Positions 9,810-12,703 of a DNA stretch of 64,000 bases are shown here, piece by piece. Numbering within the stretch: the stretch's first letter is position 1; each line of letters starts with the position of its first letter. The stretch spans positions 93,704-157,703 of the forward strand of contig QQSK01000003.1 in NCBI GenBank assembly GCA_003602415.1. The letters are read 5' to 3'. Below the pieces are notes generated by a model that did no database searches, was not told where the DNA came from, and saw only the letters and a list, made by a program, of their open reading frames with translations. The position numbers and the translations under genes were made by a program. This stretch comes from Candidatus Poseidoniales archaeon (GTDB lineage Archaea > Thermoplasmatota > Poseidoniia > Poseidoniales > Poseidoniaceae).

Positions 9810-9986
9810 ATGCCTAAGGTTAGTTTAGACATGCCTGCACAAATTCTTGATGATATCAAGACACATGTTGGCGATGATGGAAAATTTGTTTCTGTAGCTG
9901 ACGCAATAAGAACAGCATGTCGAAAAATGTTAGATCAGTTGGATAAAATTGATGCAAGGCATGGAAGATTGGAGGAACAATCATGA
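9810..9986 (+). CDS. Ribbon-helix-helix (CopG/MetJ-type) DNA-binding protein, 58 aa
   Basis: MPKVSLDMPAQILDDIKTHVGDDGKFVSVADAIRTACRKMLDQLDKIDARHGRLEEQS: RHH pattern; stop overlaps folE start (ATGA). Confidence 0.8.
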   Translation: MPKVSLDMPAQILDDIKTHVGDDGKFVSVADAIRTACRKMLDQLDKIDARHGRLEEQS

Positions 9987-10558
9987 GTACTAGAGAGGAA
10001 GCCAAAAATGCAGTAAAAACTCTGTTAGAATATATTGAAGACGATTCACAGCGTGAAGGTTTGTTAGATACTCCGGAAAGAGTGATCAAATCTTTCGAAG
10101 AAATATACGCGGGATACAGAATGGATTCTAAAGAGGTACTATCCTCAACTTTCAATGGAGAAGGATATGATGGAATCGTATTACTAAGAGATATTGAATT
10201 CCATTCAACCTGTGAGCACCATCTGCAGCCATTCAAAGGAAGAGCTCATGTTGCATACATACCAACAGAGCGAATTGTTGGAATTAGCAAACTGGCAAGA
10301 ATTGTAGAGTTACATGCTAGAAGGCTTCAGAATCAAGAAAGGATTACCAAGGGCGTTGCTGATGATTTAGAGCAAGAACTGGACCCTCTTGGTGCTGCTG
10401 TAATTATTGAGGCAGCTCACGGATGTATGCAATGTAGAGGTGTTTCAAAGCAGAATGCTGTAATGACTACAAGCGCTATGCGTGGAGTATTCTTTGAAAA
10501 GACTGAAGCAAGAACAGAATTAATGCAATTAATTCGTAGTTCTCCATTATCAAACTGA
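9983..10558 (+). CDS. folE: GTP cyclohydrolase I (FolE type I)
   Basis: FHSTCEHHLQPFKGRAHVAYIPTERIVGISKLARIVELHARRLQNQERIT...HGCMQCRGV. Confidence 0.95.
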   Translation: MSTREEAKNAVKTLLEYIEDDSQREGLLDTPERVIKSFEEIYAGYRMDSKEVLSSTFNGEGYDGIVLLRDIEFHSTCEHHLQPFKGRAHVAYIPTERIVGISKLARIVELHARRLQNQERITKGVADDLEQELDPLGAAVIIEAAHGCMQCRGVSKQNAVMTTSAMRGVFFEKTEARTELMQLIRSSPLSN

Positions 10559-10567
10559 AGTGGTAAT

Positions 10568-11164
10568 TTGACAACCTATCCAATCGTTGAGATATTTCAT
10601 TCAGTACAGGGTGAGGCTTTTCATGCTGGTATTCCGCATGTTTTTGTGAGATTCGGAAATTGCAACCTCCGTTGTGAGTGGTGTGACACTGATTTTCTAA
10701 CATATGAAGAAATGGAGCTAGATGATATCGTATCGAAAGTTGTCTCATTTAATTGTGATAGAGTAATTTTCACTGGTGGTGAACCTTGTATGCAGGACTT
10801 AGAAACAATAGGTGCAGCGCTGAAAAAGCATGATATCAATTTGTCAGTAGAGACAAATGGTACTATTGTAGTGCCAGATATAATCGACTGGATATGTGTT
10901 TCACCAAAAGATCAACTTTACCCAAATGTCTCCATCAAACAAAGAACAGGCGATGAATTGAAAGTGGTTTATTGCGGTCAGGACTTATCGATGTATGATG
11001 ATTTGAAACAAGGATTTGAACATCATTTCATTCAGCCATGCTACATGGAAAGCGATAGTGTGGAGCAGAATGGGCGTAACTTCGCAGTTGTTGAAAACTT
11101 AGTCAAAAACACACCAGGCTGGAGACTTTCACTACAAACTCACAAATGGATGGGGGTCGACTAA
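10568..11164 (+). CDS. queE: 7-carboxy-7-deazaguanine synthase (radical SAM)
   Basis: EIFHSVQGEAFHAGIPHVFVRFGNCNLRCEWCDTDF with CX3CX2C; TTG start. Confidence 0.92.
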   Translation: MTTYPIVEIFHSVQGEAFHAGIPHVFVRFGNCNLRCEWCDTDFLTYEEMELDDIVSKVVSFNCDRVIFTGGEPCMQDLETIGAALKKHDINLSVETNGTIVVPDIIDWICVSPKDQLYPNVSIKQRTGDELKVVYCGQDLSMYDDLKQGFEHHFIQPCYMESDSVEQNGRNFAVVENLVKNTPGWRLSLQTHKWMGVD

Positions 11165-12252
11165 TGCGTGCTGTTATGGCTTTGAGTGGAGGTATGGACT
11201 CGACAGGTCTACTACTCAGACTACTAAGAGAAGGGTACAAAGTAAGTTGCATCTCTTATGAATACGGTCAAAAGCACAACATTGAGTTAGAGCGCGCTAA
11301 ATTAAACATCGAGTATCTAGAAAAAAATGGATATCATGTTGAACATCGAATCGCAGATTTATCTTCTGCTATGGGAATATTTCATTCTGCATTAACCAGT
11401 GAAGATATTGAAATTCCAGAAGGGCATTATGAAGAGGAACAGATGAAGGCTACCGTGGTACCTAACCGTAATGCAATTTTCTCATCGATAATATACGGTT
11501 ATGCATTATCTATTGCCATCAAGGAAGATACCAATGTAATCATCGCATTGGGCGTTCATTCTGGAGATCACGCAATTTACCCAGATTGTAGACCTGAATT
11601 TTATGATTCATTATCTGAGTCCTTTGCTTTGGGCAATTGGGATTCTGAGAGAGTTTCTTTTGAATTACCATATATCGATGGTGACAAGGAATCAATTCTG
11701 CGTGATTCTTTGATCAGTTGCCAAAAATTGAAACTCGATTTCGATACAGTTTTTGCAAATACTAACACTTCATACAACCCTGACAAAGATGGAAAGTCAA
11801 GTGGTAAAAGTGGTGCTGATGTTGAAAGGATTTTGGCATTCCATGCGATTGGTCGCAAAGACCCTATTGAATATACTGCATCTTGGAATGAAGTCCTCAA
11901 TAACGCACTGAAGGCTCAACTAAGACACTATGTGATGAAGCAAAACGGTACAGAAAGGCCATTCACTGGAGAATATGACAAACATTTCCAGCAGGGAATT
12001 TATCATTGTGCAGAGTGTGACAAAATATTATTTGAATCTGAATCGAAATTTGATTCAGGATGTGGATGGCCAGCCTTTAGTCATGAAACTGAAAATGCGG
12101 AGATAACCAAATTGGAAGACCACAGCCACGGAATGACCAGAATAGAGGTAAGATGTTCAGGTTGTGATTCTCATTTAGGGCATCTATTCCATGAGCATAC
12201 TGGCCCAAGATATTGCATAAACTCAATTTGTTTGGAATTCAAAGGTGAATAA
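11164..12252 (+). CDS. QueC-like 7-cyano-7-deazaguanine synthase fused to a C-terminal MsrB (peptide-methionine (R)-S-oxide reductase) domain
   Basis: N-term MRAVMALSGGMDSTGLLLRLL...ATVVPNRNAIFSSIIYGYALSIA...GVHSGDHAIYPDCRPEF (QueC); C-term from about 11935 GIYHCAECDKILFESESKFDSGCGWPAF...HGMTRIEVRCSGCDSHLGHLF...PRYCINSICLEF (MsrB); single uninterrupted frame. Confidence 0.93.
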   Translation: MRAVMALSGGMDSTGLLLRLLREGYKVSCISYEYGQKHNIELERAKLNIEYLEKNGYHVEHRIADLSSAMGIFHSALTSEDIEIPEGHYEEEQMKATVVPNRNAIFSSIIYGYALSIAIKEDTNVIIALGVHSGDHAIYPDCRPEFYDSLSESFALGNWDSERVSFELPYIDGDKESILRDSLISCQKLKLDFDTVFANTNTSYNPDKDGKSSGKSGADVERILAFHAIGRKDPIEYTASWNEVLNNALKAQLRHYVMKQNGTERPFTGEYDKHFQQGIYHCAECDKILFESESKFDSGCGWPAFSHETENAEITKLEDHSHGMTRIEVRCSGCDSHLGHLFHEHTGPRYCINSICLEFKGE

Positions 12253-12253
12253 T

Positions 12254-12703
12254 ATGACGACAACAATCCGTAGATACGTAGAAACCGATACTGGACATCG
12301 TGTACCTAATCACAAATCTAAATGTAGACATTTACATGGACATAGGTATCGATTCGAAGCTGAAATCGAGGGAGACATTGTGGATGTTCCAGGAGTTTCA
12401 GAAGAAGGGATGTTAATCGATTTCTCAGATGTTTCACAGATATTGGAAGTACATATTCATGACATCATTGATCACGCTTTTGTTGTGTATGAAAATGATG
12501 AGTTATTGACTACTCTATTTGAACAGTTACCGCCAGAACATAGAATTGTGAAAGTTCCATTCATTCCAACTGCTGAAAATTTAGCAAAATGGGCTTTTGA
12601 ACAGGTCGCACCTCACATTAAGACAGCTTATGGAAATAGGCTGAAACTAGTTGCAATGCATGTCAGAGAGACTCCGAAGTCTTGGGCTTGTTGGAAGGAG
12701 TAA
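12254..12703 (+). CDS. queD: 6-carboxytetrahydropterin synthase / PTPS family
   Basis: DTGHRVPNHKSKCRHLHGHRYRFEAEIEG...; adjacent to queE/queC/folE. Confidence 0.9.
   Translation: MTTTIRRYVETDTGHRVPNHKSKCRHLHGHRYRFEAEIEGDIVDVPGVSEEGMLIDFSDVSQILEVHIHDIIDHAFVVYENDELLTTLFEQLPPEHRIVKVPFIPTAENLAKWAFEQVAPHIKTAYGNRLKLVAMHVRETPKSWACWKE

Follow-up and report, generated by a model that had tools for sequence, protein, structure and literature searches.

The locus described here raises two questions: whether a QueC-type enzyme in which the zinc ligands have been replaced still makes preQ0, and whether this change is linked to the MsrB domain fused to its C terminus. The zinc motif has been treated as one of the two hallmarks of QueC (PMC13329287), and its contribution to the QueC reaction is not settled. 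Of the two features, the loss of the zinc site is discussed here as the more interesting one. All positions below refer to the window, the whole stretch of 64,000 nucleotides that was analyzed, and all features are on the forward strand.

The queC-msrB gene (11164 to 12252) is an uninterrupted open reading frame encoding 362 amino acids, with orthologous fusions in about 78 genomes. Its start ATG overlaps the stop codon of queE, and an alternative in-frame ATG upstream, at 11146, is possible. Pfam searches assign residues 2 to 228 (11167 to 11847) to the QueC domain (PF06508; E = 4.3e-41) and residues 254 to 360 (11923 to 12243) to the MsrB domain (SelR, PF01641; E = 6.2e-43). This bears out the preliminary description of a QueC and a complete MsrB in one frame; a stop or frameshift near 11900 to 11940 was looked for, and the sequence contains none. 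The QueC part retains the ATP-binding SGGMDS PP-loop (S8 to S13, 11185 to 11202), assigned from the translation and alignment A1, in which S8, G9, G10, D12, and S13 are invariant, as well as the YxQxHxxE, VPNRN, and YPDC motifs and Y204, which directly follows the first ligand position. The catalytic signature described for E. coli QueC (PMC13329287) is thereby complete. Its TIGR00364 score, that of the QueC part, is 131.6, under the cut-off of 150.3. The MsrB domain scores above the TIGR00357 cut-off and shows 46% identity to the solved MsrB 3CEZ. It contains both zinc-binding CxxC pairs (C282/C285 and C331/C334), the resolving C300 (GCGWP), the catalytic C351 (RYCINS), and the CGWP, RYCIN, and HLGH motifs, which are kept in 85 to 87 of 87 homologues. 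The AlphaFold model of the full chain has a mean pLDDT of 90.1 and a pTM of 0.87; in Foldseek searches it matches MsrB 3CEZ (E = 3.6e-13), QueC 2PG3 (E = 7e-10), and Cap9 9NTO (E = 2e-7), with target-normalized TM scores of 0.72 to 0.75 against 2PG3 and 3BL5. Both domains are under purifying selection (dN of about 0.10 to 0.22, with synonymous sites saturated).

The former zinc site spans positions 11770 to 11820. When the family profile is aligned to the solved QueC structure 2PG3 through the zinc region, the cysteines of the latter fall in register with S203 (11770 to 11772), S213 (11800 to 11802), S216 (11809 to 11811), and D219 (11818 to 11820). A MAFFT alignment with four-Cys relatives from the same clade (L045, L319, L327, and L336) gives the same register and leaves the motif ungapped, as in TCYKPNSQGQSCGRCGSCNER versus TSYNPDKDGKSSGKSGADVER. 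These alignments confirm an earlier claim that all four zinc cysteines of QueC have been replaced. As the C(x)8CxxCxxC motif is absent, with S, S, S, and D at the four positions, the QueC part is filed as a variant and not as a canonical member of the family. It contains only three other cysteines, C29, C142 (in the active-site YPDC), and C186, so that a search for ligands elsewhere in this part found no displaced Cys cluster. The loss of four cysteines does not prove the loss of a metal: Asp and Ser could bind one, as could Asp and His in the SHTD variants.

The fusion gene is part of a preQ0 operon with the order folE-queE-queC/msrB-queD, with trmJ as an additional neighbor. The folE gene (9983 to 10558; E = 1.4e-71) encodes GTP cyclohydrolase I, the first step of the preQ0 pathway, and its product contains the Zn-ligand motifs CEHH and HGCMQC. 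It is followed by queE (10568 to 11164) for the radical SAM enzyme 7-carboxy-7-deazaguanine synthase (TIGR04508; E = 8.8e-41, below the cut-off), and queD (12245 to 12703, with an ATG at 12254) encodes 6-carboxytetrahydropterin synthase (TIGR03367; E = 1.4e-22, below the cut-off). The source genome, a Poseidoniales (Marine Group II) assembly of 1.89 Mb, is 89% complete, so that further QueC or MsrB genes could be missing from it; the fusion is the only QueC and its C-terminal half the only MsrB found there. A second, canonical QueC was sought, and the two additional PF06508 matches proved to be PP-loop fragments of 21 to 23 bits. The same genome encodes one archaeosine transglycosylase (ArcTGT; 722 aa; TIGR00432, 449 bits) and an ArcS homologue that scores 237 bits, below the NCBIfam cut-off of 440 bits; QueF was not found in it. 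From established pathway knowledge, we take the operon, ArcTGT, and the ArcS homologue to represent the archaeosine route. Literature searches found no report of archaeosine in Marine Group II or of a QueC-MsrB fusion.

The N-terminal part shares with the canonical QueC proteins of B. subtilis (3BL5) and Pectobacterium (Erwinia carotovora; 2PG3) the fold, the PP-loop, the YxQxHxxE, VPxRN, and YPDC motifs, the Tyr residue, and the preQ0 operon, but differs from them in the four ligand positions and in carrying MsrB. The C-terminal part resembles other peptide-methionine (R)-S-oxide reductases in its zinc pairs and its resolving and catalytic cysteines; unlike the usual MsrB, which is free or fused to MsrA, it is placed behind QueC, and we know of no role for MsrB in the 7-deazaguanine pathway. 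Replacement of zinc cysteines with retention of the fold is familiar from alternative ribosomal proteins and DksA. Those Cys-less proteins are usually zinc-regulated spares kept beside a Cys form, whereas entire clades have no QueC copy other than the Cys-less one. GAT-QueC of archaea and phage 9g (PMC6884629) is likewise a QueC fusion in 7-deazaguanine metabolism, but its glutamine amidotransferase partner, unlike MsrB, acts in the same pathway. QatC and Cap9 share the QueC fold; they keep cysteine motifs (a variant one in QatC) and act as protein modifiers encoded in defense operons (PMC13329287). The present protein shows none of these features.

All Poseidoniales QueC proteins examined, whether fused or unfused, lack the zinc cysteines, as do those of Marine Group III, where one sequence (L209) retains the first Cys alone (CSSD). 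Full-length Poseidoniia matches score about 119 to 157 bits against the Pfam QueC model, versus about 223 to 280 bits for the other Thermoplasmatota listed; among the latter, all 30 sequences read have four cysteines. One Poseidoniia relative (L208 in G183; family f3, genus g23) encodes a quite different, four-Cys QueC of bacterial type, which suggests gene replacement. A scan of species genomes finds further Cys-less QueC proteins in eight Pirellulaceae or Planctomycetaceae metagenome-assembled genomes (MAGs), one TMED6 MAG, one Neomarinimicrobiota MAG, and two genomes labelled Thiotrichales and Gammaproteobacteria. In the seven Pirellulaceae/planctomycete genomes checked, the Cys-less protein is the sole QueC (7/7) and QueA is also present, so that queuosine is apparently made with it. 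Hundreds of viral QueC proteins, mostly without MsrB, lack the zinc cysteines as well, including nearly all among the first 80 QueC matches listed from IMG/VR, those of Rhizobium and Pseudomonas phages, and that of the isolate Flavobacterium phage immuto, which is of the type described here. On the two viral contigs that were read in detail, a Cys-less queC has folE and queE as neighbors, joined on one of them by queD. Locus L037 (3031 to 5780) has folE-queE-queC with a Cys-less QueC of the MGII type on a contig that also encodes primase- and clamp-loader-like proteins and may belong to an MGII virus; in this case the viral and archaeal MGII-type QueC genes are close in the tree.

In a QueC tree built with the motif columns removed, Cys-less sequences form four lineages that stand apart from one another. 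All but lineage C have four-Cys relatives nearby; lineage C, which comprises a few contigs, sits on a long branch. Lineage A (clade support 100/100) includes Poseidoniia, planctomycetes, magrovirus-like contigs, and marine phages; lineage B includes Rhizobium, Pseudomonas, and other phages; and lineage D consists of contigs related to the Seuratvirus-type QueC (CAjan). Parsimony requires nine changes of the Cys state, counted without direction. From this distribution, the zinc site appears to have been lost in at least four separated lineages, for the most part in viruses. The clade that holds the Cys-less Poseidoniales QueC has full support (100/100) and also contains four-Cys sisters, indicating that the loop changed in place. 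A loop deletion in the HTN2/Rhizobium phage lineage was considered and rejected, as the alignment with four-Cys sisters shows substitution in place there as well.

The ligand positions read S-(S/H/A/N/D)-(S/T)-D or S-D-(S/T)-S in lineage A, (S/A)-x-D-(T/S/N) in lineage B, S-D-N-S in lineage C, and D-x-N-(T/S) in lineage D, nearly always with an Asp among small residues; the ligand that it replaces (4, 2, 3, or 1) varies by lineage. This Asp is found in 228/228 Cys-less sequences of lineage A, 53/55 of lineage B, and 32/32 of lineage D (313/315 in total), and in all five of lineage C, against an Asp background of 6%. The pattern was noticed post hoc, and its independent units number four or five, being lineages rather than sequences; any estimate of chance would be rough, and we take the pattern as strong but not formal evidence. 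The QueC of Iggy-group Pseudomonas phages (L146, 601 to 1320; L474) has S-T-N-N at these positions, neither Cys nor Asp; the S-T-N-N protein of HTN2, a member of this group, is 99.6% identical to the one in Iggy. Phages of the Iggy group reportedly carry dPreQ0, which fits a working QueC devoid of the zinc site, but a host QueC could supply the preQ0. A QueC with three cysteines and Asp at ligand 4 (CCCD) is encoded in L419 (1501 to 2145; IMGVR_UViG_3300032163_000001) and is possibly intermediate between the four-Cys and Cys-less forms.

The phyletic distribution of the fusion is narrower. A search of 165 genomes of the order returned matches in 141 species-level genomes, about 78 of which, as counted from the table, have both domains in one frame; an assembly artefact or frameshift is thus ruled out. 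Most of the remaining Poseidoniales genomes encode QueC by itself, usually with msrB just downstream, and in some the adjacent msrB is missing. Separate genes in relatives had been named as a possible sign of an assembly fusion; many relatives do encode the two separately, usually side by side, but the fusion is real and separation is a true alternative state. The 362-aa fusions have a short linker, ALKAQLRHYVMKENGTE, and those of about 380 aa a long one, HKDxxYxxRLTxxQYxVTR. Nine changes between the fused and separate states are required on the QueC tree, mostly at weak forks, and three on the MsrB tree. The fusion is probably a merger of two adjacent operon genes. Outside Poseidoniales, MsrB was not found beside QueC in the loci read, except for one contig with Poseidoniales-type queC/msrB pieces in a MAG labelled Neomarinimicrobiota (L479, G367:C1:2600-4900). 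Such pieces also occur in a public MAG labelled Phycisphaerae (L286), and both cases probably reflect binning contamination. In L309 (2941 to 4536), a run of N within the queC-msrB gene of the assembly record makes the long open reading frame beyond the gap unreliable.

It is quite probable that the QueC of the fusion is a working preQ0 (archaeosine) synthase that has lost its Zn knuckle and that MsrB was joined to it separately and later. The N-terminal half would serve as the archaeon's only QueC, converting CDG, with ATP and ammonia, first to ADG and then to preQ0, the precursor of tRNA archaeosine, and the C-terminal half as the only MsrB of the genome, which would make the polypeptide bifunctional. 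The Zn(Cys)4 knuckle would be gone, and the loop and the essential Tyr that follows ligand 1 would be kept. In E. coli QueC, Ala mutants of Y35, R99, Y131, and Y189 are inactive (PMC13329287), and the equivalents of all four residues are present in the fusion; Y189 directly follows ligand 1, and the inactivity of Y189A therefore indicates that the zinc loop gives the active site its shape. We infer that one Asp and small polar residues, mostly Ser/Thr, hold the loop through hydrogen bonds in place of zinc, the single carboxylate accepting the backbone and hydroxyl hydrogen bonds formerly accepted by the zinc thiolates. The MsrB fusion would be a later Poseidoniales event, an in-frame joining of neighboring co-transcribed genes with both activities kept, and its main effect is probably tethering or co-translation. 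The zinc loss is old and recurrent and the fusion younger and lineage-specific, two unrelated features meeting in one protein.

The preliminary description had instead connected the two. A single adaptation, in which a QueC freed of oxidizable zinc thiolates is repaired by its own MsrB, might seem natural in a protein of surface-ocean archaea with a Met in its PP-loop (SGGMDS), yet it is very unlikely: QueC proteins with no MsrB partner from Marine Group III, Pirellulaceae, and viruses also lack the cysteines, unfused Poseidoniales QueC proteins are equally Cys-less, and MsrB and FolE from the same operon retain their Cys motifs. Since the Cys loss is older and wider than the fusion, and Cys-less QueC commonly occurs without MsrB, fused or not, the proposed link fails; self-repair of QueC methionines by MsrB is possible, without specific support. 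The other earlier suggestion, a QueC repurposed for protein deazaguanylation or another product, draws on its relatives in Qat and type IV CBASS systems, which do so (PMC13329287), and on the structural match to Cap9. It is hardly credible given the canonical motifs, the full preQ0 operon, the single copy, and the presence of ArcTGT and the ArcS homologue; no CBASS or Qat gene (CD-NTase, qatABD) was seen among the neighbors read.

Zinc-poor surface seawater might favor a zinc-sparing isoform, many hosts being marine according to the titles of their records and Zur regulons being known to contain zinc-free replacements, among them FolE2 and alternative ribosomal proteins (PMC6103462). This is quite unlikely here, as FolE, QueD, and MsrB of the same operon keep their zinc-ligand motifs, the fusion's QueC is a sole copy and not a zinc-regulated spare, and Cys-less lineages include Rhizobium and Pseudomonas phages. 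Exchange of the zinc for a hard metal ion (Mg, Ca, or Na), coordinated by hydroxyls and a single carboxylate, would account for the way in which separate lineages combine one carboxylate with small polar residues at the four ligand positions, but we regard it as unlikely: in lineage B, ligand 2 is often replaced by a hydrophobic residue and ligand 1 by Ala; the Asp-less STNN proteins of HTN2 and L474 indicate that a metal is not generally needed. A broader form of the preferred reading, a zinc-free preQ0 synthase, is more tentative: zinc may be dispensable in QueC, with the Zn(Cys)4 knuckle repeatedly giving way to a cluster built on a single carboxylate, perhaps including a different metal, in an unrecognized zinc-independent class from marine archaea, planctomycetes, and viruses, and possibly with altered chemistry (e.g., release at the amide ADG) exploited by viruses for DNA bases.

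With a sole-copy QueC devoid of the zinc site and close four-Cys sisters in its clade, the role of zinc is directly testable in matched pairs. Where annotation rules demand the motif or the equivalog score, QueC would go unrecognized or be scored too low in an abundant group of ocean archaea and in many marine phages. Cys loss as the cause of ADG-modified phage DNA is unsupported, as the dADG phage CP220 has all four cysteines. Vibrio phage GR7B (L145, 486 to 1292 and 1372 to 1723) has two adjoining genes that are both annotated as 7-cyano-7-deazaguanine synthase.
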